The notes under the pieces: model-generated
What the model was told of the DNA's origin: nothing
What the model saw: only the letters and a program-made list of their open reading frames with translations
Database searches by the model: none
In this document: piece after piece, positions 25,579 to 40,750 of the stretch
Layout: every line of letters starts with the position of its first letter
How positions within the stretch are numbered: position 1 is the first letter of the stretch
Source of the DNA: an uncultured Bacteroidota bacterium
GTDB lineage: Bacteria; Bacteroidota; Bacteroidia; Chitinophagales; Chitinophagaceae
Direction of reading: 5' to 3'
Length of the DNA: 40,750 bases
NCBI GenBank assembly: GCA_903878475.1
Contig: CAIRHQ010000112.1
Span: 1-40,750 of the forward strand
Made by a program: the position numbers and the translations under genes

Positions 25579-26745
25579 ATGAAAAAATACCTGTTGATTT
25601 TCTTATGTATAGGCAATTGGGCTTCCGCCCAAGTGATCATTGATCCGAGTTTAAAAGCCTACTACCCCTTTGACGGCAATGCCAAAGATGCGAGCGGCAA
25701 CAAAAACAACCCCATTTTCAACAATGCCACGCTCACCAAGGACCGTTTTGACAAACCCAACAGTGCCTATCATTTTAACGGGATCAATCAATACATGCGG
25801 ATCCCCAATAGCGCTACGCTGAATCTGAAGAACCAGATCACCTTGTCGGTATGGATCAGACCCACCGGCTTTTATCACGGTATCTGTCATGCCAGTGCCA
25901 TACTATCAAAGGGAGGAGGCAATTACCTGCCCGGCGATTATGCGTTAAGGTTCGATGACGCCCTCATCAGTTCGGGTATGGGTTGCGGCGATATTACCGC
26001 AGATACCATTCACCAGAATTTCAGAGGAACCGGAACCGTGCTTAATCCCTATACGCCCTATATCAAAAAGAATCAATGGTATTCGGTGATCTATACCAAT
26101 GATGGTACTACTGCGCGACTGTATGTAGATTGTGAACTGAAATATGCGGTTACTTTTTCCGAAACCTTCAGCAATACCGAAGACCTGTTCCTGGGCAAGA
26201 GCAACGACCCTTATTTTAAATTCTGGATGAATGCCGACCTGGATGATATTCGTATCTATGATCGTGCCCTTACGGAAGATGAGATCGCTGCACCCTGCGG
26301 CGGCACACCCAAAAAGAAAGTAATCCCCGAAAAAAAGCCGGTTACAGAAATAATACCCGTTCCCAAAAAGGAGATCGAACCTGAAAAGAAAATTGAACTG
26401 GAAACCCGTACCAATGAATTGATGAGACAGATCACCGTTGATCACGACTCCATCTCCATCGATCTGTACGATAACGGTGAAATTGACGGCGACAGCGTAA
26501 CCCTGATCTATAATGACCAGATACTCACTACACATCAGTTACTCACTGATAAGGCTAAACGCTTTATCATTAAAGTAGCACCTGGGAATATCAAGAATGA
26601 GCTGGTCATGTATGCCGAAAACCTGGGCAGCATACCACCCAATACCGCACTGATGGTGATCTACGACGGCGATAAACGTTATGAAGTAAATGTAAGGAGC
26701 ACTAAAAGCACGAACGGTGCGGTGAGGTTCAAACTTAGGGAGTAG
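25579..26745 (+). CDS. Secreted LamG/concanavalin-like domain protein with a Bacteroidota C-terminal domain
   Basis: 388-residue exported protein. Signal peptide MKKYLLIFLCIGNWASAQ. Residues about 25-230 form a LamG/pentraxin-like beta-sandwich (LKAYYPFDGNAKDASGN, FNGINQYMRIPNS, ITLSVWIRP, ADLDDIRIYDRALTEDEI), a fold that commonly binds glycans or proteins. A Lys/Pro/Glu linker (about 243-275) follows. The C-terminal domain (about 285-388) contains IDLYDNGEIDGDSVTLIYN and AENLGSIPPNTALMVIYDG, which I recognise as a recurrent domain of Bacteroidota secreted proteins without a firm name. No enzyme residues are evident. Probably a surface or periplasmic binding protein. Confidence 0.82.
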   Translation: MKKYLLIFLCIGNWASAQVIIDPSLKAYYPFDGNAKDASGNKNNPIFNNATLTKDRFDKPNSAYHFNGINQYMRIPNSATLNLKNQITLSVWIRPTGFYHGICHASAILSKGGGNYLPGDYALRFDDALISSGMGCGDITADTIHQNFRGTGTVLNPYTPYIKKNQWYSVIYTNDGTTARLYVDCELKYAVTFSETFSNTEDLFLGKSNDPYFKFWMNADLDDIRIYDRALTEDEIAAPCGGTPKKKVIPEKKPVTEIIPVPKKEIEPEKKIELETRTNELMRQITVDHDSISIDLYDNGEIDGDSVTLIYNDQILTTHQLLTDKAKRFIIKVAPGNIKNELVMYAENLGSIPPNTALMVIYDGDKRYEVNVRSTKSTNGAVRFKLRE

Positions 26746-26760
26746 GGAAGTTCATAGTTT

Positions 26761-26880
26761 ATAGTTGGAGGTTGGAGGTTGTCCCGAAAGCTTTCGGGAG
26801 GAGGTTTCTTTAACTAGTTATACCCTGCGCTAAACAACTAAACAACTAAACAACTAAACTCCTCAACTCCTCAACCAGCT
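26761..26880 (+). repeat. Composite intergenic repeat, left copy (inverted relative to 28471-28645)
   Basis: Order: TTGGAGG-like short repeats, then a 66-base core (26778-26843), then AACTAAAC repeats, then CTCCTCAA repeats ending at the prfC stop codon. The core contains the 16-bp palindrome CCCGAAAGCTTTCGGG and the 10-bp palindrome TAACTAGTTA. The core is identical, base for base, to the reverse complement of 28537-28602 on the other side of prfC. Confidence 0.93.
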
Positions 26881-28467
26881 CTATTTATGTATCTCACTCG
26901 TAAAATGAAACTCAATATCCGGGTTATTCTGTCTTTCGGTATTTAAGAACCATTCACTATTGGCCAGGTATACCAGATGACCGTCTTTGTCTTCGGCAAT
27001 ATTGGCCTGCTTGAACCGGATAAAATCTTCCAGCTTTTTAGGGTCTGTACTGGTAAGCCAGCAAGCCTTGTAAAAAGGCAGGTTATTCATCTGAACGGAA
27101 GCGCCATATTCCTGCAACAAGCGGTATTGGATCACCTCAAACTGAAGTTCTCCCACACAACCGATGATCTTCTTATTTCCCCCAAACTGGGTGAACAATT
27201 GGGCCACACCTTCGTCTGTAAGTTGCAGTAATCCTTTCTCCAACTGCTTGGTTTTCATAGGATCTTTATTGACTACCTCCTTAAATATTTCAGGAGAAAA
27301 ACTGGGTATTCCGGTAAAGTAAAAATCCTCTCCTTCGGTCATGGTATCCCCAATTTTGAAGTTCCCGGTATCGAATAAACCCACCACATCGCCAGGATAG
27401 GCATCCTCGATCACTTCTTTCTGGCGGGCCAGAAAACTATAGGGATTGCTGAACCTGAAATCACGTTCCATACGTACATGATGGTAATAAGTATTGCGTT
27501 CGAACCTGCCGCTGCATACGCGCAAAAAAGCGATCCTGTCGCGATGCTTGGGGTCGAGGTTGGCATGTATCTTAAAAATGAACCCGCTGAACTTCTCCTC
27601 CTCAGGTCGTACATCCCTTACCGTGGTATGCCTTGGCCTTGGTGTAGGTGCGATCCGGATAAAAGTATCCAGCATCTCTTTTACCCCAAAATTATTAACG
27701 GCAGATCCAAAGAACACCGGGGCGGTCTTGCCCAACAGATAATCCTCCTCATGCAGTTCACCATACACGCCATCGATCAGTTCCACATCTTCGCGCAGCG
27801 TGGCTGCATCCTTCTCGCCTATCTTTTCATCCAGTACTTTTTCGCTAAGGTCATTGATCTCTACCACATCTTCATCATTGGCCTTGGTACCTGCGGTAAA
27901 CAACACCAGACTTTTCTTATGCAGGTCGTATACCCCTTTAAAATCCTTACCACTATTGATGGGTATGGTCATGGGGTGCAATTGTATCTTCAGCTCATTT
28001 TCTATTTCCTCCAGCAGGTCGAACCGGTTCTTTCCATCCCGATCCATTTTATTGATGAACACGATCACCGGCGTATTACGCATGGCAATAACTTCCATCA
28101 GCCTGCGGGTTTGGGCCTCTACCCCGTTTACACTATCGATCACCAGCACCACACTATCTACTGCCGTAAGCGTTCTATACGTATCTTCTGCAAAATCCTT
28201 GTGACCCGGGGTATCCAGCAAGTTGATGAGGTGTCCGTTGTATTCAAAGGTCATCACACTGGTGGCCACACTGATACCACGCTGACGCTCGATCTCCATA
28301 AAATCGGAGGTGGCGTGCTTCTTGATCTTATTACTCTTTACGGCACCTGCTGTTTGAATAGCTCCGCCAAATAACAGGAATTTTTCTGTTAATGTGGTTT
28401 TACCCGCATCCGGGTGAGAGATGATGGCAAAGGTCTTGCGCCGGTTTATTTCGTTTATGTACTTCAT
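26881..28467 (-). CDS. prfC: Peptide chain release factor 3 (RF3)
   Basis: 528-residue translational GTPase that removes RF1/RF2 from the ribosome after peptide release. G motifs: SHPDAGKTT (P-loop, residues about 18-26), RGISVATS (switch I), DTPGH (switch II), NKMDRDG (base specificity). The [14 protein letters not shown] and [16 protein letters not shown] segments are RF3 hallmarks that separate it from EF-G. Length matches E. coli RF3 (529). A 66-bp perfect inverted repeat brackets the gene, one copy in its 5' leader and one just after its stop. The downstream repeat begins at the base next to the stop codon. Confidence 0.97.
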
Positions 28468-28470
28468 GTT

Positions 28471-28645
28471 TTTGAGCTGGTTGAGCTGGTTGAGGAGTTG
28501 AAAAGTTGAGGAGTTGAGAAGTTTAGGGGTTTAGGTGTTTAGTTGTTTAGCGCAGGGTATAACTAGTTAAAGAAACCTCCTCCCGAAAGCTTTCGGGACA
28601 ACTTCCAACATCCAACATCCAACTTCCAACATCCAACCTCCAACA
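28471..28645 (-). repeat. Composite intergenic repeat, right copy, within the prfC leader
   Basis: Reading from prfC outward: GAGCTGGTTGAG units, TTGAGGAG and GGTTTAG-like units, the 66-base core (28537-28602), then about six CCAAC(A/T)TC units to 28645. The core is the exact reverse complement of 26778-26843; the flanking short repeats are of the same kinds but differ in number. The copy starts 4 bases upstream of the prfC ATG and lies between the ATG and the likely promoter. Confidence 0.93.
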
Positions 28646-28667
28646 ATTCTCTCCGTTTTAAGCGCCG

Positions 28668-28699
28668 CAAAGGTACAGTTTACCCCCCTAAAATTGAAA
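28668..28699 (-). promoter_or_regulatory. Likely promoter of prfC
   Basis: On the minus strand TACCTTTG (28675-28668) matches TAnnTTTG; TTTC lies 20 bases upstream (28699-28696). Transcription would start near 28660, giving a leader of about 190 bases that includes the whole right repeat copy. The rest of the 313-base gap to the permease gene shows no gene. Confidence 0.5.
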
Positions 28700-28780
28700 G
28701 CTATTTGAAACAGCCATAGTGTTTCAACCGCTCATCTATATTTTTGGTTAGCATTCGGCCTGTATCTTGTAATTTTGGCT

Positions 28781-30022
28781 ATGCGTAAAACGCTGAATAT
28801 AATACTGAATTCACTGAGGCTAACCTTTGAAGAACTGAGGGTGAACAAGATGCGTACCGCCCTGAGCCTTACGGGTGTTGCCTTTGGCATTTTCTGCATC
28901 ATTGGCGTATTGGCAACCGTAACCAGCCTCGAAAAGAATATACAAGACCAGGTTCAAAGTCTGGGTACCAATACCATCTATATTGATAAATGGGACTATA
29001 GTGGCGGCCCCGATATGCCCTATTGGAAGTTCAGGTCGAGGCCCGAACCAAAATATGAAGAGGCTGAAATGGTAAAACAGCGTTCTGAGCTGCTCGATGA
29101 TATTGCCTTCCTCTTACAAACCAATAGCAAGATCACCGTAAAAGGGGAATGGGTCGAGAACAAAGTGATGGGAGTAACCCCATCGCAGATGGTCATTCAA
29201 CCCATTAAGTTCGACCAGGGCCGTTATTTTTCACAGTCTGAATTCAATGCCGGCAGCAATGTTTGTTTGCTGGGCTTTGAAACCGCCGAAAATCTTTTTG
29301 GCAGTACCGAACGGGCCGTGGGCAAAGAGGTTGATATCAAGGGAAAAAAGGTCATGGTCATTGGCGTCATTAAAAAAGAAGGAAAGACTTTTATTGGTTG
29401 GGGTTTCGACAACTCAGCGATGATCCCCTACCGTTTATTCAAACAATTATTCAAAGAAGAATATTCCAGTCCGATCCTGATCGCCAAAGGAAAAGAAGGT
29501 GTACTCACTGCTGCCCTCACCGATGAACTGAAAGGCATCATGCGGCAGATCAGAAAATTAAGTCCTACCCAGGAAGATAATTTTTCACTCAACAGTGTGG
29601 AAGCGTTCAGTAAGGCCATCACAGCTTTTTTCTCTACAGTGAATGTGGTGGGTGGAATCATTGGCGTGATCAGTTTGATCGTGGGATTATTCGGTATCGC
29701 CAATATCATGTTCGTTACGGTGAAAGAGAGAACACCCATTATCGGATTGAAGAAAGCCATCGGTGCCAAAAAAAGCAGTATCCTCTTTGAATTTCTATTG
29801 GAAGCCACCATACTTTGTTTAATGGGTGGTGCGGTAGGACTCTTCTTCGTTTTCCTGCTCACAAAACTATTATCGGGCCCATTAGAGTTCCCCATCTATA
29901 TCTCTATTCCCCTACTTTTTGCTACCGTTATCGTTTGTCTGATCGTAGGCATACTTGCCGGCATATTCCCAGCAACTAAGGCTGCTAAGATGGATCCTGT
30001 GGAGGCGATAAGAAGCAAATAG
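28781..30022 (+). CDS. ABC transporter permease, MacB/FtsX type
   Basis: 413-residue inner-membrane permease with one N-terminal and three C-terminal membrane helices: TALSLTGVAFGIFCIIGVLATV near residue 25, a large periplasmic MacB_PCD domain (about 50-270), then helices in NVVGGIIGVISLIVGLFGIAN, the ATILCLMGGAVGLFF region and the LLFATVIVCLIVGILAGIFPA region. The closing PATKAAKMDPVEAIRSK is the family signature. I prefer ATG 28781 to the in-frame TTG at 28775. A TAATTTTG (28771-28778) ending 2 bases before the ATG resembles a -7 element, but would make the mRNA leaderless or start inside the gene. No ATPase gene is adjacent, so the partner is encoded elsewhere. Substrate unknown. Confidence 0.87.
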   Translation: MRKTLNIILNSLRLTFEELRVNKMRTALSLTGVAFGIFCIIGVLATVTSLEKNIQDQVQSLGTNTIYIDKWDYSGGPDMPYWKFRSRPEPKYEEAEMVKQRSELLDDIAFLLQTNSKITVKGEWVENKVMGVTPSQMVIQPIKFDQGRYFSQSEFNAGSNVCLLGFETAENLFGSTERAVGKEVDIKGKKVMVIGVIKKEGKTFIGWGFDNSAMIPYRLFKQLFKEEYSSPILIAKGKEGVLTAALTDELKGIMRQIRKLSPTQEDNFSLNSVEAFSKAITAFFSTVNVVGGIIGVISLIVGLFGIANIMFVTVKERTPIIGLKKAIGAKKSSILFEFLLEATILCLMGGAVGLFFVFLLTKLLSGPLEFPIYISIPLLFATVIVCLIVGILAGIFPATKAAKMDPVEAIRSK

Positions 30023-31146: not shown

Positions 31147-31154
31147 CCTTATAA

Positions 31155-31222
31155 CGTTTAAGGTTTAAGGGTTTAAGGTTTAAAGTTGGTTGAGGAGTTG
31201 AGGGGTTTAGAGGTTTAGGACA
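31155..31222. repeat. Degenerate third copy of the short intergenic repeats
   Basis: GTTTAAG-type heptamers (GTTTAAGGTTTAAGGGTTTA) followed by GTTGGTTGAGGAGTTGAGG and GGTTTAGAGGTTTAGG. The unit types match those flanking prfC, but the 66-base core is absent. It lies between tsaD and trmN6. Confidence 0.65.
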
Positions 31223-33753: not shown

Positions 33754-35427
33754 TCATAAGAGACGCCCAGATGGCGGAATTGGTAGACGCAGCAGACTCA
33801 AAATCTGCCGTTCGCAAGGATGTGCAGGTTCGATTCCTGTTCTGGGCACAAGACTAGAGTTAAGGTAATCTCCATCGAGGTTACCTTTCTTTTTTTCTGC
33901 TATAATCCTTTGCAGTGGCTGTATTGCAGCAAATAAGCTGTTCACTCTTTCGGTTCGAACAACCCCTTTTTCTTTATTATACAGGATTCCATAAGGAAAT
34001 ACCAGGTTTTGCAGTACACGCCTGTTATCAAAGCCTGCTGTAACCCAAGCCCTGCTTATGTTCTGTGCAATACCCAAACATTTCTCAACGGCATTTTCAA
34101 AGTTCGAACTGCTAACTTCAGTTTTAGCAAGATCATCTGATAATACCCTGATCTCTTCTTTAATTATTGCTAGATGTTTATGGTATATCTCTTTATCAAT
34201 TTCATCAAACAAAAACTTTCTCTCTATTTTTTCAAGCTGTGTTTCTTTCTCTGACAGCTTCTTTTTAACCAGCTTGGTTTCATCTACTGATTTTGACAAC
34301 CGTTTTGTAATACCCTGGAGTAATAGTTTTTTTAATGCTGCTTTTTTTTCTTTGTTGTACTCAAACTGTATTAAATAATCAACAAATAGCTTATTAAGGG
34401 TTGTAGCTCTTACATTAACAGGAACTACTGTGGATTTAGTTTTATAGTACCAATTGTTTTTGGTAGTATATCCCGTTAAAGGCTGTCCGCTGATATCATC
34501 TTTAGCAAAGATTTTTAGCGGCACCTCCTGATGTGCAAAAACTTTAGGGATACCGGCGATTGGTGATACGTCAAGCCTTTCGTTAGCTTTTACAAATGTC
34601 TCCAAATCTATAAGCGCAGGATGCTTCCCTTTTATCAATCGCCCTTCTAATAATTTGCCTGTAATATAACCAGCATAGAATGGATTAGTTATGATACCCC
34701 GAAATGATTTCTCATTGATATTAACTCCTCTTGCTCTTAACGTATCAATAATGGTACGATGATTTAACTTCCCTTCTGCTACAAGACCGAAGGCTTTTTT
34801 CAGTTCCTTTCCTTCATCTGTGATAATGTATTGATGAAAGCAGGCACGCTGCCCAATTTGTGTATTCTTGTATCCCACTGGCAGACAATACGGCCAGTAT
34901 CCCTTTTCCATTACTTCTCTAGTATGAAGCTTGGTTCTGTCACTCTTGGCAACATTATCAAAATTATTCATCAGGTGCATGAAGTTTTCCTGCAAACGGC
35001 CTGAAGCTGTTGATGTGTCTATATCCTGCATGACTGATTTAACAATGATTCCTTCCTTTCTTAAATCTTCACTCAGTTTTGCGGCTGTGGAACCGGTGCG
35101 GGAGAACCTGTCGTAACTTGATACAATGATATAAGTGATATCCTTATGCTTTCTAACATAAGAAAGCATACGCTGAAACTCTTTTCTTCCATCAGTTTTA
35201 GCACTCTCGTATTTACCTCCAAAAAGTTCCCGGACAGAGATTTTGTTTCTGGATGCAAATTCTTTGTCGATCTTCAACTGCACATCCAAACTACCATTAT
35301 TCTGTTCCTGCTCCAAACTGCTAACCCTGGTATATATAACACCATATTTGCCAGTTCGTAAATTCGGAATCTGGTATTGCCCTGCTATCATTTTTTCCAA
35401 AAGTAATTCAAGATTGTTCTTCTTCAT
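33754..35427 (-). CDS. Large serine recombinase (integrase), C-terminus reading antisense through tRNA-Leu
   Basis: A 557-residue site-specific recombinase from ATG 35427 (MKKNNLELLLEK; a longer in-frame start at 35466 adds 13 residues). The N-terminal resolvase domain has GVIYTRVSSLEQEQ with the nucleophilic Ser, VSSYDRFSRTG and the VMQDIDTSTASGRLQENF catalytic-core segments. The Recombinase domain spans about residues 165-290 (GYWPYCLPVGYKN, RGIITNPFYAGYITG). At the usual zinc-ribbon position (LKIFAKDDISGQPLTGYTTK) the Cys residues are absent. A coiled-coil stretch lies around 380-440. From about residue 527 the frame is the antisense of tRNA-Leu (LVPRTGIEPAHPCERQ and following). Probably the integrase of the element. 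The start overlaps the small ORF upstream by 20 bases. Confidence 0.9.
   Translation of the reverse strand: MKKNNLELLLEKMIAGQYQIPNLRTGKYGVIYTRVSSLEQEQNNGSLDVQLKIDKEFASRNKISVRELFGGKYESAKTDGRKEFQRMLSYVRKHKDITYIIVSSYDRFSRTGSTAAKLSEDLRKEGIIVKSVMQDIDTSTASGRLQENFMHLMNNFDNVAKSDRTKLHTREVMEKGYWPYCLPVGYKNTQIGQRACFHQYIITDEGKELKKAFGLVAEGKLNHRTIIDTLRARGVNINEKSFRGIITNPFYAGYITGKLLEGRLIKGKHPALIDLETFVKANERLDVSPIAGIPKVFAHQEVPLKIFAKDDISGQPLTGYTTKNNWYYKTKSTVVPVNVRATTLNKLFVDYLIQFEYNKEKKAALKKLLLQGITKRLSKSVDETKLVKKKLSEKETQLEKIERKFLFDEIDKEIYHKHLAIIKEEIRVLSDDLAKTEVSSSNFENAVEKCLGIAQNISRAWVTAGFDNRRVLQNLVFPYGILYNKEKGVVRTERVNSLFAAIQPLQRIIAEKKKGNLDGDYLNSSLVPRTGIEPAHPCERQILSLLRLPIPPSGRLL
33765..33848 (+). tRNA. tRNA-Leu (anticodon CAA)
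   Basis: An 84-base class II tRNA. Acceptor GCCCAGA/TCTGGGC with discriminator A73. Anticodon stem GCAGA/TCTGC with loop CTCAAAA, anticodon CAA. Long variable arm, and T-arm GCAGG/CCTGT with loop TTCGATT. CCA is not encoded. Its 3' end is the junction with the recombinase-bearing region, and the recombinase frame reads antisense across the entire tRNA. Confidence 0.97.
33862..33897 (+). terminator. Rho-independent terminator after tRNA-Leu
   Basis: An 11-bp stem with one G-T pair (33862-33872 with 33877-33887), a 4-base loop, and a T-rich run to 33896. It lies inside the reading frame of the opposing recombinase gene and has no T-run on the minus strand. Confidence 0.75.
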
Positions 35428-35548
35428 CCTGGCTTGTTTTATTTTCTGCTTCAAAATAAATATCAATCAGTAGCTCTGCAAACTGCAGTAGCTGCTCGTC
35501 GATGGATGGTTCGTTTATTTGTAAACCATCTTCATTTTTGTTTTGCAT
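35408..35548 (-). CDS. Small acidic protein overlapping the recombinase start
   Basis: 46 codons from ATG 35548 to TGA, encoding an acidic peptide (MQNKNEDGLQINEPSIDEQ, then LLQFAELLIDIYFEAENK). It overlaps the first 20 bases of the recombinase gene in another frame, so translation of the recombinase may be coupled to it. The predicted helix LLQFAELLIDIYFEAE looks like a real amphipathic segment. No function can be assigned; a recombination directionality factor or a translational-coupling leader are possibilities. Confidence rests on overlap and composition alone. Confidence 0.5.
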   Translation of the reverse strand: MQNKNEDGLQINEPSIDEQLLQFAELLIDIYFEAENKTSQDEEEQS

Positions 35549-35601
35549 GTGAAATTCATCAATGCAAATCCTGTCGGTCGTCTACCGTACAATCAATATT
35601 C

Positions 35602-36576
35602 TTATAATTGGTCTGATTCGTTCAGTACCTTTAATTGTTTTTTTATTTTTATAATATCGGTCACTTCCAGCTTTACTGGTATGCCGTCTCTTACATTCAG
35701 GTGGATCTCTTTATAATCTCCTTTTTTTAATATCCTTGATATTTTCTTTATCATCTCTTCATCCTGTTTCTTAGCTAGCCTGAGTTGAGTAATTGCCCCG
35801 TTGTCCATTTTAATGGTAATCTGTTTGTAATTACCTGTTCGTATTGCCTGTATTACTTCTTTTTCTTCAGCGTCCATTATTGAAAAATAAAATTCAGCAG
35901 GTGCATCCAGCTTTTCATTGTCAAAGAATTTGTTAATCAGGTTGCTGATATTGATCATGGAAAATGATGTATTTTGCATATTCCAAAAAACCTCATTCTG
36001 CTTCTGCGCATTTATTTCATCCACGGGCTTACCCAAATTTATAAAACAATTACTTTCTCTATCATTGTAAAAGGCGATAGTAGATTTTTCTATGAGGGCA
36101 ATCAAAACCATAGTCCCAAAAATACTAAACGAATTTTCGGCTAATGTGGTTACCATTTCATCGCCTTTCAAGCCCTCCTTAAGATTTTCTTGTATTGGTT
36201 TAAAATAATCCGGCCCTTGTATTTCTGAAATTTCTTCCAAACGGGTCCTGATTTCTGTGCTAGTTTTTGGAAAAAGTTCCTCTTTTAATGTTTTTACCTC
36301 TTCCAGCGGCATACCGTAATATCTTAACTCTCCGATAAATTTTACCCAGATCACTTCTATAAAACTAAAGGATCTCCATTTACGCTTTTCAGACTCATAA
36401 CTTATCAAGCCTGCCTTTTCCCAGTCACCAATTAACTTACTGTGTATCCCTGTTTCTTTTATATGGAATTTAGGCTCGTTTAAATGCGGATACAATTCAA
36501 CCGCTTTTTCCTCTATTTCTTTATCTAAAAAAAGCTCCGTAATAGAATCTAAGGTAAAAATATTAAAAACTAACAT
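35602..36576 (-). CDS. MerR-like regulator with two repeated C-terminal hairpin modules
   Basis: 324-residue protein, not matched to a named family with certainty. Residues about 37-100 resemble a MerR winged helix: FHIKETGIHSKLIGDWEKAG (HTH), LISYESEKRKWRSF (wing), then GELRYYGMPLEEVKTLKEEL, like the MerR second helical pair. The middle (about 105-235) is helical with a hydrophobic stretch near 150-165. The C-terminus has two similar modules: IQAIRTGNYKQITIKMDNGA (about 249) and ISRILKKGDYKEIHLNVRDG (about 290). Each is a helix then a beta hairpin with the pattern I-x-x-I/L-x-x-G-(N/D)-Y-K-x-I, reminiscent of DUF2292/YezD small proteins. It is divergent from the zinc-motif gene, with palindromes in between, fitting an autoregulated element regulator. 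Confidence 0.6.
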   Translation of the reverse strand: MLVFNIFTLDSITELFLDKEIEEKAVELYPHLNEPKFHIKETGIHSKLIGDWEKAGLISYESEKRKWRSFSFIEVIWVKFIGELRYYGMPLEEVKTLKEELFPKTSTEIRTRLEEISEIQGPDYFKPIQENLKEGLKGDEMVTTLAENSFSIFGTMVLIALIEKSTIAFYNDRESNCFINLGKPVDEINAQKQNEVFWNMQNTSFSMINISNLINKFFDNEKLDAPAEFYFSIMDAEEKEVIQAIRTGNYKQITIKMDNGAITQLRLAKKQDEEMIKKISRILKKGDYKEIHLNVRDGIPVKLEVTDIIKIKKQLKVLNESDQL

Positions 36577-36587
36577 TATTTAGTACT

Positions 36588-36620
36588 TTTGGTATTGTAA
36601 TTAATTACCAAATATACTTT
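36588..36620. promoter_or_regulatory. Divergent promoters with palindromic operator candidate
   Basis: Minus-strand -7 TATATTTG (36616-36609, full match) for the regulator; plus-strand TTTG (36588-36591) and TATACTTT (36613-36620) 21 bases apart for the zinc-motif gene. Between them lie inverted 7-mers TTTGGTA/TACCAAA (36588-36594, 36606-36612) and the 12-bp palindrome GTAATTAATTAC (36597-36608). A palindrome inside an overlong promoter spacer is the arrangement used by MerR-type activators. Confidence 0.45.
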
Positions 36621-36643
36621 ATTTATTCATTAAAACACAACAA

Positions 36644-37072
36644 ATGAAAAAAAATTTAGAATTTCCGCCTAGGTATTTTACCTATCTAAAGAAACGGGAA
36701 TGCAGGAACTGTGGCAAGCCAATCGCTGATCAGGAACATGCCGGCAGGACATACTGTCCCAAAATTTATGATGAATACGATAAAGTGGTTGATTGCAAAA
36801 CCACTTTAGCAAGAATCAATGACCAGCCTGACAGAGATCTACACAGAAACCTTATTAACGAGCAAAAGTTTTTCAGCAACCGCATTAAGGCACTTGTTGA
36901 AAAAAAGGGTTTGGAAGTATATACGGATGATTTAACCGCATATGACATAAAATTATCAAATGCTGTTAATATGAATCTCACACGGGATGGTATACTCACT
37001 ACTTATTTTTTTAACTACAGCATAATTTCAAACCCAATTACTAACAAACACAAAATTCAATATAATGGATAA
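36644..37072 (+). CDS. Small protein with a Cys-rich zinc-finger-like motif
   Basis: 142 residues, not recognised. The N-terminal third contains ECRNCGKPIADQEHAGRTYC, then a Cys about 15 residues later (VVDCKTT), a C-x2-C...C...C pattern with a His in between that suggests a structural zinc site like those of degenerate zinc ribbons. A helical, charged middle (RINDQPDRDLHRNLINEQKF) follows. The C-terminus is polar/aromatic with no membrane segment. Start ATG 36644 is 24 bases after the plus-strand -7 candidate. It overlaps the next gene by 8 bases, so the two form a coupled pair. Possible roles are DNA or RNA binding in the element; there is no evidence for a specific one. Confidence 0.6.
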   Translation: MKKNLEFPPRYFTYLKKRECRNCGKPIADQEHAGRTYCPKIYDEYDKVVDCKTTLARINDQPDRDLHRNLINEQKFFSNRIKALVEKKGLEVYTDDLTAYDIKLSNAVNMNLTRDGILTTYFFNYSIISNPITNKHKIQYNG

Positions 37073-37379
37073 TAAAATACTAATGAGCATACTAGCTCAG
37101 CTCCAAAAAACTCATACTCAGCGCCAGACCCTTTATATAATGGGTGGCATTATTATTATGGGAGGCATTAGCATATATTATTTAAAGAAAAATAATAATG
37201 CTCAATCATATAATATAAAATCCCTAACCGGCATTAATGGTACCCTTACTGCTCACGTTGGTAAGCAGGAGCAGGTATTATCGCAAAAGCAAGGGAAGAT
37301 TAATCAACTGGAAATAGACAATCAGCAGCTATCCCAAACCATAGCATCCCTGAGGCAGGAAAAGCCCCAGGAAAATTAA
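37065..37379 (+). CDS. Small single-span membrane protein with coiled coil
   Basis: 104 residues, not recognised. A short cytoplasmic-like head (MDNKILMSILAQLQKTHTQR) is followed by one membrane helix (about 23-40, TLYIMGGIIIMGGISIYYL), a KKNNN stop-transfer, and a Gln-rich coiled-coil segment (about 62-98, KQGKINQLEIDNQQLSQTIA). The layout resembles phage Rz-like or small anchored accessory proteins, but no lysis genes are present. Its ATG overlaps the zinc-motif gene by 8 bases. Confidence 0.6.
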   Translation: MDNKILMSILAQLQKTHTQRQTLYIMGGIIIMGGISIYYLKKNNNAQSYNIKSLTGINGTLTAHVGKQEQVLSQKQGKINQLEIDNQQLSQTIASLRQEKPQEN

Positions 37380-37430
37380 TAGTGTTTAAAGCTGGCTGTG
37401 TGAAATATGCGTTACGCCAACAGTTATTGG

Positions 37431-37510
37431 ATTCACGCTTAGTCATGGCTATTCACAGATATTCACGATGAATCACTTGTTGTCACTGCATTTCACGATA
37501 ATTCACGTGA
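37431..37510 (+). repeat. Eight in-register 10-bp repeats with a TCAC core
   Basis: Consecutive decamers begin ATTCAC, AGTCAT, ATTCAC, ATTCAC, AATCAC, TGTCAC, TTTCAC, ATTCAC at 37431, 37441, 37451 and so on to 37501. Seven of eight carry TCAC at the same offset; rough consensus ATTCACGnTn. The last unit runs into palindrome TTCACGTGAA (37502-37511), and a further palindrome CGTGAATTCACG lies at 37524-37535. A period of 10 puts all sites on nearly one face of the helix. Confidence 0.8.
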
Positions 37511-37580
37511 ACCAGATTTTTTGCGTGAATTCACGGAAAAATCTACACCTGCAACGGAAAAATCCCATAGGGTAATTTGG

Positions 37581-37610
37581 GAGAATTTAGGAGAGGTTAG
37601 GAGAAGTTTG
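37581..37610 (+). repeat. Three in-register GAGAnnTTAG decamers
   Basis: GAGAATTTAG, GAGAGGTTAG, GAGAAGTTTG in tandem, followed by T-rich DNA. The remaining parts of the 341-base gap (37380-37720) show no gene; the other feature is the hairpin before the recombinase ATG. Confidence 0.6.
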
Positions 37611-37697
37611 TTGTTTTTTTGGTAGAAATTTTGGTAATTATCACCCCGTTACCTTTTTTTGTATTTAATCCTCCACCTAATTTTAAAGAAATACCAT

Positions 37698-37719
37698 TGC
37701 TGTAACCAAAATTACAGCA
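37698..37719. promoter_or_regulatory. Inverted repeat just before the tyrosine recombinase start
   Basis: TGCTGTAA (37698-37705), a 6-base loop CCAAAA, then TTACAGCA (37712-37719), ending one base before the ATG at 37721. As RNA it would hide the start region; as DNA it could be an operator or recombinase-binding site. Confidence 0.5.
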
Positions 37720-37720
37720 T

Positions 37721-38794
37721 ATGAAAAGAAGCGCACCCACCATCTCTGTTTCAGCTTATTTAAGCCAATTTATTAATGCTTCCTCATCTGGAAGAAGATT
37801 AACCCCGTCCTGTAAAAGAATTGCACCAGGCACCATTTTAAATTATCAATATGTGCAAAAACTATTGCTACAATTTGAACAAAGGGTCGGGCATTCTTTA
37901 AGGATTCAATTATTGCACAGGGCTTCAATGGCTACTTTACAAAAGGAAAGAAAATACTGGGCCAGGTTTTATACCCAGTTTGCGAGTTTTTTGTATAAAG
38001 AGAAGGGCTATCATGATCATTATGTAAAAAGTACCTTCAAGGTATTGAAATCATTCTTTAATTACCTTCAAAATGATAAAGGATTCAGTGTGGGTAATTA
38101 CCATAAATTATTCAGAACACCATTACAAAATACTGCACCGGTGGTATTACTACCAGAAAGGTTGCAATTCCTGATTTCAGACAAAGCATTTGAAGAGGGG
38201 CTCAATACTCACCTTGAAAGGGCAAAAGATATCTTTGTATTTGGTTGTACGGTGGCGTTAAGGGTAAGTGATCTAATGAATTTGCAAAAAAGAAATATCG
38301 TGAATACCGGCGATGAAATTTATTTAAGTATTTGTACAAAAAAAACAGGAACAGAAATTAAAATCCCCTTGCCTGCCTATGCCATTGATATCATAAAAAA
38401 GTATAAACGGGTCGCTGGTAAGTATATTTTACCACGTTTATCAGTTACGAATTTAAATATTCAGATAAAAAAACTCATTGAAGCGGCAGGCTGGAATTAC
38501 CCATTACCAAAAATCATCAGTAGGCAGGGTAAGTTGATTGAACTAAAACTTGCAGACGGGAAGCCATGGCGGTTTCATCAGCACATTACTGCTCATACCA
38601 TGCGCCGTACTGCCATAACAACCCTGCTCATCATGGGAGTGCCGGAACTAATGGTTAGAAAATTATCGGGGCATGCACCCGCTAGCAAGGAGTTTTACAA
38701 ATATGTGAATATAGCCCAGGAGTACCTAAATAAAGAGGTATTAAAGGCTTTTAACAGTTTAGCTGAAACTGATTTTACATTGAAAACTGTTTGA
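37721..38794 (+). CDS. Tyrosine recombinase/integrase
   Basis: 357-residue phage-integrase family recombinase. An N-terminal SAM-like core-binding domain covers about residues 10-145 (with YVKSTFKVLKSFFNYL). The catalytic domain has all the expected residues: Arg in TVALRVSDLMNLQ, Lys in CTKKTGTEIKIP, His/Arg in AHTMRRTAI, His in LSGHAPASKEF, and the Tyr nucleophile in YKYVNIAQEY. It therefore looks active. The upstream gap contains phased decamers and an inverted repeat suitable for arm-type or regulatory sites. The gene need not belong to the same insertion as the serine recombinase 2.3 kb away. Confidence 0.93.
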   Translation: MKRSAPTISVSAYLSQFINASSSGRRLTPSCKRIAPGTILNYQYVQKLLLQFEQRVGHSLRIQLLHRASMATLQKERKYWARFYTQFASFLYKEKGYHDHYVKSTFKVLKSFFNYLQNDKGFSVGNYHKLFRTPLQNTAPVVLLPERLQFLISDKAFEEGLNTHLERAKDIFVFGCTVALRVSDLMNLQKRNIVNTGDEIYLSICTKKTGTEIKIPLPAYAIDIIKKYKRVAGKYILPRLSVTNLNIQIKKLIEAAGWNYPLPKIISRQGKLIELKLADGKPWRFHQHITAHTMRRTAITTLLIMGVPELMVRKLSGHAPASKEFYKYVNIAQEYLNKEVLKAFNSLAETDFTLKTV

Positions 38795-39040
38795 AGTAGA
38801 CGATATGAGTCCTCTCATCCAAAATCGATTTAACAATATAGCCGGGAAATTCCCGGCTATACAATGATTTCTTCTTGTTCTTGCCGGAAGAAAACACCAT
38901 GTTATTTATCAGATTGATGATTTTCTCTTTCCAGATTTCATAGTTTAAGCTCTCTGATAATAGTACTACAAATTAGCAAGCGAGGCTATTATGGCAAAAG
39001 AGATAGACCGAGACCCTTTCATCGGGCCTTTTGAAATAAT
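38775..39040. other. Non-coding gap with a hairpin and a short unassigned reading frame
   Basis: A 12-bp perfect hairpin arm pair, TATAGCCGGGAA/TTCCCGGCTATA, spans 38837-38861 with a 1-base centre and no T-run, so it is not a typical terminator. On the minus strand a frame open from about 38963 to TAA at 38775, with an ATG at 38900, gives 41 residues from the ATG (for example SLYSREFPGYIVKSILDERT) that look protein-like. It overlaps the last bases of the tyrosine recombinase antisense and may be a gene remnant. No other signal seen. Confidence 0.3.
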
Positions 39041-39694
39041 TCAATTATTGTCGATCGGACTAGATTTACCTTCGCTAGGCGTAAAAGTAATTCTTAATGT
39101 TTCAAAAAAATCAGCTTTATCAGAGAATTGCAATTTAAATGAATCTATTTCAGTATTAAGAACATCTAAAGTTGTTATCTGTTTTTTTAAAAAAAATAAA
39201 TCCGAGAACGACTCTTCATTAAATTTATTTTTTATTTGATTGTCCTTAATATAATCTTGAACAGGTTCAATAGCTTGGAGGAAATATTTATTTCGTTGAA
39301 TACTATCTGATTTAGATTCATAATATATACCATTAAAGTAATTATGGTACATTTTTTGTTTATACTTTAACTTAAAATCTGCTAAATTAAGAGAATCTAC
39401 AAATTTGATACCTAACTCATACTCTTTCAGAAGAGCCAATATGTTTATTTTTAATTGAACTGCTTCAAATCGTGTTTCTTCACAATTAATCGGATTTTCT
39501 AAATAGCTTAATGCATTAATCAATACTGATTGATCTGTATTTTGATAATACGAATAAAAAGCTTTTGATGCTTTATTATAATTGGATTTACACGTATCGA
39601 TTTTCTTTTGCTGTGCATCACAGCTATATAAAACGAAACAGAAAAAATAAACGGTTATTAATGTTGAAGGATTTAATGCTTTGAAATTGCACAT
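39041..39694 (-). CDS. Predicted lipoprotein next to the RHS cassette, candidate immunity protein
   Basis: 217 residues. A hydrophobic signal (STLITVYFFCFVLYSC) ends in a lipobox LYSC, followed by DAQQKKIDTCK, so lipid-anchored export is predicted. The rest is helical (ALSYLENPINC, LKINILALLKEYELGIKFVDS, YNGIYYESKSD-like) and resembles degenerate TPR-type helical pairs; this is an impression, not a match. It follows the RHS fragment by 5 bases on the same strand, as immunity genes follow polymorphic toxins. An envelope-located immunity protein would imply a toxin acting in the periplasm (inference). AT-rich. Confidence 0.65.
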   Translation of the reverse strand: MCNFKALNPSTLITVYFFCFVLYSCDAQQKKIDTCKSNYNKASKAFYSYYQNTDQSVLINALSYLENPINCEETRFEAVQLKINILALLKEYELGIKFVDSLNLADFKLKYKQKMYHNYFNGIYYESKSDSIQRNKYFLQAIEPVQDYIKDNQIKNKFNEESFSDLFFLKKQITTLDVLNTEIDSFKLQFSDKADFFETLRITFTPSEGKSSPIDNN

Positions 39695-39699
39695 ATTGT

Positions 39700-40689
39700 T
39701 TATTTAATATAAAAAGATGGGGTAAACGAGCCAAAAGTATTTGTATACGGTAGTGGTATACCGAAGATTCCTATAGGTGTTGGATCCCCGTTATCTGAGA
39801 TTTGCCAAGAAGTGCCACTTACCTTTAAGCCCGGGAAACTATCTCCTTTCGATATTTGATTAGCAGGGAGTAAAATACTACCTACTCTCACGCTAGTCTG
39901 GGACTCACGCAACCTATCAGTACCTTCAACTGGGCTTAAATAATTCTCATATTTAGTCCCTTTAAAAATTACTTGAGCTCCTCCAGTTGTTTCTATATTA
40001 TCTGCTCCTGCAGAGTTCTTTGTTATATTTGTAATTCCAATTCTTACTCCCATAAATTCCTTTGAGAGATTTTCACCATTTTTTAGGCCTAGACTTGTAA
40101 TTTTAATGTCGGCAGAAACGGTTATAGATGAATTCACTTGAACTTTGGCTAAAAATGAGGCGCCCCATTTCGCATCTATAATTCTTTCCCCTGGTTCGTT
40201 TGAACCCACTGCGATAAAACCAACTGTTGTTGATGTTGCAGGATTGTATGAAATTTTCCACCCTAAATCTTTGAGTATATCATTATCTTGTTTACCTACA
40301 TATTGATACCCTGCAGGAGTATTTGCGATTGAAGTTACTTCATTTCTCCACTCATATTTTCCTGCTTTATCTTTTATCCAATCTTTAGTATCCATTCCAT
40401 CTGGATCAATGAATCTAATTGGATTATTTACTCCATAAGTATAAGGGCTCCATCTGCTATATTTATCAGCAAAAGGGTCAACAGTCCACCATCTTCCGAC
40501 TTGAGGATCTAGCATTCTTGCTCCATAATCATAACTTTCAAGACCACTTCCATCACTGAACTCTTGATTTTGTAATTCTTTGCCGTTGTACTTGTATTTA
40601 TTTTGAAGTTTGCCAGCGGCTTTAGAACTAATCCCCGCCATTGTTAACCCGAATGGGTTATAATGAATTAAGGCAATACCAAAATTCAC
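39700..40689 (-). CDS. Orphan RHS-repeat core plus variable C-terminal domain, N-terminus missing
   Basis: 329-residue frame from GTG 40689 (in-frame TAA at about 40724, so the huge RHS N-terminus is absent). Residues about 10-30 hold [15 protein letters not shown], the normal link between shell and core. The RHS core (about 33-100) is intact: [56 protein letters not shown]. The remaining ~225 residues form a beta-rich domain I do not recognise, with no nuclease or deaminase motif visible. The conserved DPDGM boundary is where toxin domains are swapped. The GTG start may not be used; the fragment could be a silent cassette that recombines with a full-length rhs gene. The window edge prevents seeing what lies upstream. 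Confidence 0.7.
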
Positions 40690-40750
40690 TAAGGTTTCAA
40701 AGAACTTGTACTGACTATAAATTTAATAAATATTTATATTTTGGGTTTAC

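Follow-up and report, generated by a model that had tools for sequence, protein, structure and literature searches.

Introduction

The heptamer arrays described in bacteria have no known function. The closest precedent for the elements reported here is the set of convergent GGGAATC heptamers of Xanthomonas (PMC4692102), whose role, according to the available part of that paper, is still to be elucidated. TAACTGA repeats also form heptamer arrays, for which the available text gives 169 direct sets and one inverted case in the main genome (PMC4679880). Mrazek 2007 is cited in the available parts of both papers. No recognisable description of such arrays in Chitinophagaceae was found in the open-licence literature, as judged from titles and the beginnings of abstracts.

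We analysed a stretch of 40,750 nucleotides (contig C112, hereafter the window) from the 2.85-Mb, 245-contig genome of an uncultured Chitinophagaceae bacterium, in which the release factor gene prfC is bracketed by an inverted repeat. We report that this repeat is a pair of opposite-orientation copies of a dispersed intergenic element, and a claimed gene switch becomes a question about a repeat family.

Results

The inverted repeat pair around prfC

The nearest named counterpart of the window's prfC is that of Ferruginibacter sp. isolate P-RSF-NP-03 (95% identical), and on this basis we regard the host as a Ferruginibacter-like bacterium within Chitinophagaceae. Upstream of prfC is a divergent gene for a MacB/FtsX-type permease, and downstream lies a convergent gene whose product has a Laminin_G_3 domain. 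Copy 1 of the repeat occupies the gap separating the stop codons of the two convergent genes, with the prfC stop codon five bases beyond the end of its 8-mer array (26875). Copy 2 sits between a conserved TANNTTTG motif and the prfC ATG. The features are as follows.

26749–26784, plus strand: inward-pointing 7-mer array of copy 1, GTTCATA/GTTTATA and then GTTGGAG
26778–26844, plus strand: 67-bp block shared with copy 2, with palindrome, core and start of the 8-mer array
26783–26798, strandless: palindrome CCCGAAAGCTTTCGGG of copy 1
26828–26875, minus strand: inward-pointing 8-mer array of copy 1, GTTTAGNN and GTTGAGGA on the minus strand
26881–28467, minus strand: prfC, peptide chain release factor 3 (NF001964 and TIGR00503 above cut-off)
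28472–28552, plus strand: array of copy 2, 9-mer and then 8-mer (GTTGAGNN, GTTTAGNN), a few nucleotides short of the prfC ATG
28536–28602, minus strand: 67-bp block shared with copy 1
28582–28597, strandless: palindrome CCCGAAAGCTTTCGGG of copy 2
28596–28644, minus strand: inward-pointing 7-mer array of copy 2, GTTGGAG/T/A
28668–28675, minus strand: conserved TANNTTTG promoter motif of prfC (TACCTTTG), outside the repeat
31152–31220, plus strand: a further array element, the third in the window, with (TAAGGTT)n and then GTTGAGGA/GTTTAGAG 8-mers, after the TsaD gene

A base-by-base check confirmed the observation of an earlier note on this DNA that 26778–26843 is the exact reverse complement of 28537–28602; the perfect identity is in fact one base longer (67 bp, 26778–26844 and 28536–28602), and even the 66-bp match is far beyond chance. 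Both copies contain the two palindromes that the note had listed, CCCGAAAGCTTTCGGG at the positions above and TAACTAGTTA at 26811–26820 and 28560–28569. The wider arms (26739–26875 and 28505–28641, 137 nt) are 88% complementary, and BLAST aligned the pair at 94.6% over 112 nt; among element pairs longer than 100 nt it ranks first in similarity across the 913,478 bases examined. Short tandem units flank both copies, also as noted earlier, in 7-mer and 8-mer arrays whose unit numbers and spellings differ: in copy 1, one flank is built of GTTCATA/GTTTATA and GTTGGAG units and the other of TAAACAAC-type units; in copy 2, GTTGGAN occurs six times and the 8-mer/9-mer stretch is longer. The region 26600–28900 has no Rfam match up to E = 1.

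The suggestion that the prfC promoter lies outside the repeat is backed by the TANNTTTG motif, which we take to be the -7 promoter motif of Bacteroidota. This motif occurs within 350 bp upstream of the prfC ATG in 68 of the 78 relatives with enough sequence, compared with 14% of random 350-bp stretches. Its median distance to the ATG in relatives is 39.5 nt, reaching 186 nt or more in 4 of the 68, and the window has a single TANNTTTG within 350 bp, 200 nt from the ATG, with the element between motif and start codon. Such elements matter for the reading of leaders as well as for assembly. That arrays start with TAAAC follows from how they were counted, and this count does not enter the evidence.

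A dispersed family of intergenic elements

The 141-bp copy has at least 49 matches with E ≤ 0.001 in its own genome, itself and copy 2 counted (40 of 95 first-look candidates were scored). Most are partial and often consist of arrays alone. These matches bear out the generic intergenic repeat family that the earlier note had offered as an alternative. The note had named many dispersed copies at similar identity as evidence against its switch; the copies are indeed many, but their identity is lower than that of the prfC pair: the fullest other copies (L003, L004, L005) are 72–77% identical, and L004 and L005, on different contigs, match at 89% over 119 nt. A match between an end of contig C5 and an end of C7 (62 nt, 98.4%) may be an assembly overlap.

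The element consists of a GTTGGAG 7-mer array, the CCCGAAAGCTTTCGGG palindrome, a variable core and an 8-mer array on the opposite strand, both arrays pointing inward. The same module order was seen by eye in 30 of the at least 49 matched loci, where GTTCATA and GTTGGAG (or GTTGGCA) 7-mers come first, often followed by a TCCCG-N8-CGGGA palindrome, a core of about 25–60 nt or more that differs between the loci, and a third stretch of TAAACNNC and TCAACTCC 8-mers, often with TTAAACC 7-mers after it. Many of these loci have an incomplete set of modules. The CCCGAAAGCTTTCGGG palindrome has 10 exact sites in the genome, versus none for a reversed-pattern control, and 25 sites when W is allowed at two positions; of the 93 genus genomes compared, 24, ours among them, carry at least one such W-variant site. 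Among the 21 CCCG-N8-CGGG sites in the contig sample described below, 10 lie in the context of GTT/AAC arrays, and perfect sites outside arrays are present too (C18, C29). Contig C78 carries two near-identical arrays in the same direction, 165 bp apart, an instance of local copying elsewhere in the genome.

A hydrolase gene of the same genome (L025:458–1255, contig C242) contains array-palindrome sequence in frame, giving the peptide KLEVGPDSYREEVG. PGSG stands at the same spot in 9 of 11 aligned homologues and the loop is of nearly equal length, as if existing sequence had been overwritten rather than enlarged by an insertion. Other genus members (L280, L288, L283, L287) appear, on inspection by eye, to have CCCGAWAGCTWTCGGG within or next to tRNA-like and coding sequence, in some cases near contig ends and possibly as an assembly artefact.

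Array period and unit spelling

Since loci fetched by similarity are biased, contigs were sampled by number instead: up to 20 kb from the start of each of contigs C1–C80 of the 245, together with the window, comprising 841,286 non-N bases, with genes called crudely as the longest ORFs from 90 codons upward. The sample contains 32 tandem arrays of period 4–12, and 27 of these have period 7 or 8. GTT or AAC is present in 26 of the 27, compared with 22% and 25% of random 7- and 8-mers. GTT arrays are intergenic in 48 of 52 cases and lie in called ORFs in the other four. The units in this genome include GTTGGAG, GTTTAAG, GTTGAGGA and GTTTAGNN, none resembling GGGAATC with its G-runs.

The prfC loci of relatives (80 named loci, 1,271,275 bases) yielded 30 arrays, 20 of them with period 7, which is thus the commonest tandem-array period there too, with different units; GTT occurs in 10 of their 25 period-7/8 arrays. 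Together, the two scans indicate that the short period is common to the family and that our genome favours the GTT spelling far more strongly. A more sensitive intergenic scan of our genome gave 73 arrays, 42 with lag 7 and 17 with lag 8; in relatives, lags 7, 8 and 14 accounted for 39, 21 and 17 of 98 arrays, and each shuffled control yielded two arrays. One named strain, Longitalea luteola (L059), has a regular family of its own: three elements running from TAATTTGA-type to ATCATCAC-type octamers, with inner gaps of 67, 65 and 66 nt.

Array polarity relative to gene borders

Neighbouring GTT arrays in our sample converge in 11 cases, diverge in none and run in the same direction in six. A unit-independent test, which asks only which strand holds more G, was then applied with stretch-edge arrays and ties set aside (12 and 3 in our genome, 12 and 5 in relatives). 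The G-rich strand of an array points away from the nearest gene in 47 cases against 5 in our genome and in 60 against 15 in the 80 relatives' loci. Scored in this way, neighbouring pairs converge 18 times and diverge never in our genome, and 11 times and never in relatives, with 7 and 10 pairs in the same direction. Judged by unit similarity, neighbours are inverted in 18, direct in 7 and undecided in 1 case in our genome, and in 13, 9 and 1 in relatives, a weaker result. An earlier pair count (15 converging, 3 diverging, 11 in the same direction) was put aside, since most of its loci had been retrieved on the basis of similarity and, for two diverging pairs, the calls overlapped on a single 9-mer.

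Array-free intergenic sequence served as a control. On the 5' side of genes, G exceeds C in the outward direction at 180:59 in our genome and 234:110 in relatives, whereas the 3' side gives 69:95 and 117:132. With arrays present, the 3' side gives 27:3 and 40:12. Because the array-free control is outward on the 5' side only, the 3' polarity belongs to the arrays and the 5' polarity is partly background.

The two arms of neighbouring arrays are mirrored in four relatives (L048, where a variant unit is mirrored too, L097, L103 and L068). Mirrored arms as a general rule were dropped for our own genome, in which arms taken from different pairs match about as well as those within the 26 neighbouring pairs (9.4 vs 10.2).

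The prfC locus in relatives and the proposed inversion switch

Both copies are absent at prfC in the 12 relatives compared. Between the prfC stop codon and that of the following gene, L044 has 1 bp and L052 has 10 bp, versus 135 bp in the window, where the gap is nearly all element. Arrays of other units were seen by eye at the same places in five of the 12 (L041, L042, L048, L140, L153); these reflect either repeated gain at the site or inheritance with unit turnover. While gain of the element is visible at prfC, these relatives are too diverged for its ends to be defined by comparing target-site duplications or terminal inverted repeats (TIRs).

The earlier note had proposed that recombination between the copies flips prfC away from its promoter and thereby switches RF3 on and off. 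The assembly shows the segment on one contig and in a single orientation. The perfect 67-bp inverted repeat at both ends of the segment and a promoter motif outside it are what such a switch would need, and one relative (L055) has prfC, flanked on either side by 9-mer arrays, inverted with respect to purB. However, the arrangement of permease gene and prfC is constant where it could be compared. Among the 80 named prfC loci, a permease match within 4 kb was found in 28, and in all 28 the permease gene lies upstream of and opposite to prfC. A purB match within 4 kb was likewise found in 28, and purB is downstream of and opposite to prfC in 27, L055 being the exception; loci lacking such matches are short, diverged or rearranged. 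No permease match was found in the 21.6 kb of L055 itself. In L150, purB and prfC are on one strand with a gene between them and no GTT arrays were detected, so arrays are not needed for such a change. Changes of arrangement at prfC are rare in the family and happen with and without arrays. Moreover, the element type is generic and adjoins other genes too, and the prfC repeat pair was not found in the other genomes of the genus, where the 141-bp copy has weak matches in at least 11 of 92 (best E 1.6e-5, at most nine candidates scored per genome). We consider the switch unsupported and very improbable; the flipped prfC of L055 with its flanking arrays perhaps reflects a slow evolutionary inversion.

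A search of this fragmented genome for two recombinase families, PF00239 and PF00589, returned no dedicated recombinase adjoining the repeat. The single PF00239 hit (window 34900–35340) is about 5 kb away, within a 570-aa ORF overlapping tRNA-Leu, and looks like an island integrase rather than an invertase; one of the three PF00589 hits is at window 38225–38710. The surrounding region, 33754–40750, looks like an integrated island. Its GC content is about 31–37% from 34000 on, versus 40–46% before, and the low-GC stretch starts at tRNA-Leu (33765–33849), which the 570-aa serine-recombinase ORF (33754–35466) overruns on the opposite strand; a tyrosine recombinase gene lies inside the stretch at 37721–38794.

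Discussion

Origin and spread of the copies

We think it probable that the prfC copies arose by local copying of an ordinary member of the family, whose elements may serve as punctuation, and that they do not form an inversion switch. The earlier note had considered that a non-coding element was recently duplicated or converted, and the dispersed family, the near-identical pair and its absence in the 12 relatives support this. One prfC copy would have been derived from the other by recent local duplication or conversion in inverted orientation, and array slippage would afterwards have caused drift in the arrays while the core stayed unchanged.

How the family itself spreads can be read in two other ways. 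Polymerase slippage in place at gene borders, with template switching or gene conversion copying arms and cores between neighbours, would fit the prevalence of period 7 in the 80 relatives' loci despite their different units, the mirrored arms of the four relatives and the differently spelled arrays that occupy one intergenic site in different species. Yet the palindrome, the junctions and the module order are common across loci of our genome, which speaks for copying of one common sequence and against independent origin in place, and we regard slippage as possible but doubtful. Alternatively, the element could be a non-autonomous, MITE- or REPIN-like unit moved by a trans-acting transposase, with the prfC copies as a recent insertion pair. 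This is an unlikely explanation, even though dispersed copies have a common module order, the palindromes resemble REP hairpins, the genome has two Y1_Tnp genes and variants close to the hairpin of its second RAYT adjoin GTTGGAG-type arrays. The cores between arrays differ from element to element, no target-site duplication was demonstrated for the element, no transposase for it was identified, and the two RAYT genes of our genome are surrounded by other hairpin families. RAYT-type genes are found in 82 of 93 genomes of the genus, yet the palindrome is present in only one of 32 RAYT loci scanned (none of our two, one of 30 genus loci, the best 30 of more than 150 matches listed), and mobilisation of the palindrome by RAYT was rejected. 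Local copying of a family member remains our preferred account of the prfC pair.

Mobile carriers were likewise dropped: a distant blastn search of plasmids and phages with the 143-bp copy returned no match, and the exact 27-base core has no occurrence in viral contigs. By eye, the Y1_Tnp (RAYT-like) genes at L137 and L138 each lie amid their own hairpin repeats, CACCCCTTCGGGGT and GCCGTTTGTCGGGAGACAAGACGGC.

Possible function

Whichever way polymerase leaves a gene, the first array that it meets would have a G-rich RNA copy; on this ground we put forward, tentatively, that elements with convergent arrays may act as two-way transcription punctuation. A strong hairpin was dropped as the basis of such an effect, given that predicted RNA folding was no better than that of shuffled sequences in four of five element stretches (z = -1.18, -0.69, -0.92 and 0.33; -3.30 in the fifth). 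A C-rich, Rho-type signal was dropped by eye, since the units of several relatives are not C-rich. More speculatively, and with a rather low likelihood in our estimate, converging short-unit arrays of Chitinophagaceae, Xanthomonas and Nostoc might constitute one unit-independent intergenic class, with a 7–9-nt unit spelled by lineage and a constant polarity at gene borders maintained by a two-way insulator role or by one copying mechanism; pairs around a gene would then allow evolutionary flips, perhaps as in L055. If the 3'-end polarity holds across phyla and units, it offers a testable clue to the origin or role of the arrays, for example in stopping outgoing transcription both ways.

Comparison with known systems

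Several described repeats share individual traits with the elements reported here, as far as the available parts of the respective papers go. Galileo, a foldback-like transposon of Drosophila tied to chromosomal inversions, has TIRs with internal repeats; it is eukaryotic and carries a transposase gene, and the arms in our genome are not copies of each other (PMC3573991). REP, REPIN and BIME sequences associated with RAYT (PMC3116915, PMC2817692) are also extragenic palindromes dispersed in mosaics, whereas the hairpin here lies inside arrays and no RAYT is tied to the palindrome. The BrickBuilt MITE of Porphyromonas gingivalis (PMC4596501), like our elements, is intergenic, multi-copy, built as an array between end pieces and found in Bacteroidota; it has one direct array of 23-nt units with small inverted ends, in contrast to converging 7- and 8-mer arrays around a core. 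TAACTGA repeats of Beggiatoaceae, Cyanobacteria and five Bacteroidetes (PMC4679880) form intergenic heptamer arrays too, some beside other heptamer arrays, but they consist of one unit and in the main genome are mostly forward and just upstream of start codons.

The GGGAATC and GGGGA(C/T)T heptamers of Xanthomonas and Nostoc (PMC4692102) come closest, with the same polarity as our elements. They belong to other phyla and have another unit, one unit type being studied per genome in the available text. By the traits of the Xanthomonas type, our genome has intergenic 7-mer arrays and convergence, without a GGGAATC-like unit. The Xanthomonas and Nostoc units have G-runs able to form quadruplexes, while those here have mostly G pairs, and no palindrome, variable core or 8-mer half is described for them in the available text. 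The polarity is thus known from Xanthomonas; what is new here is its occurrence with another spelling and in another phylum, together with the added palindrome, core and 8-mer half.
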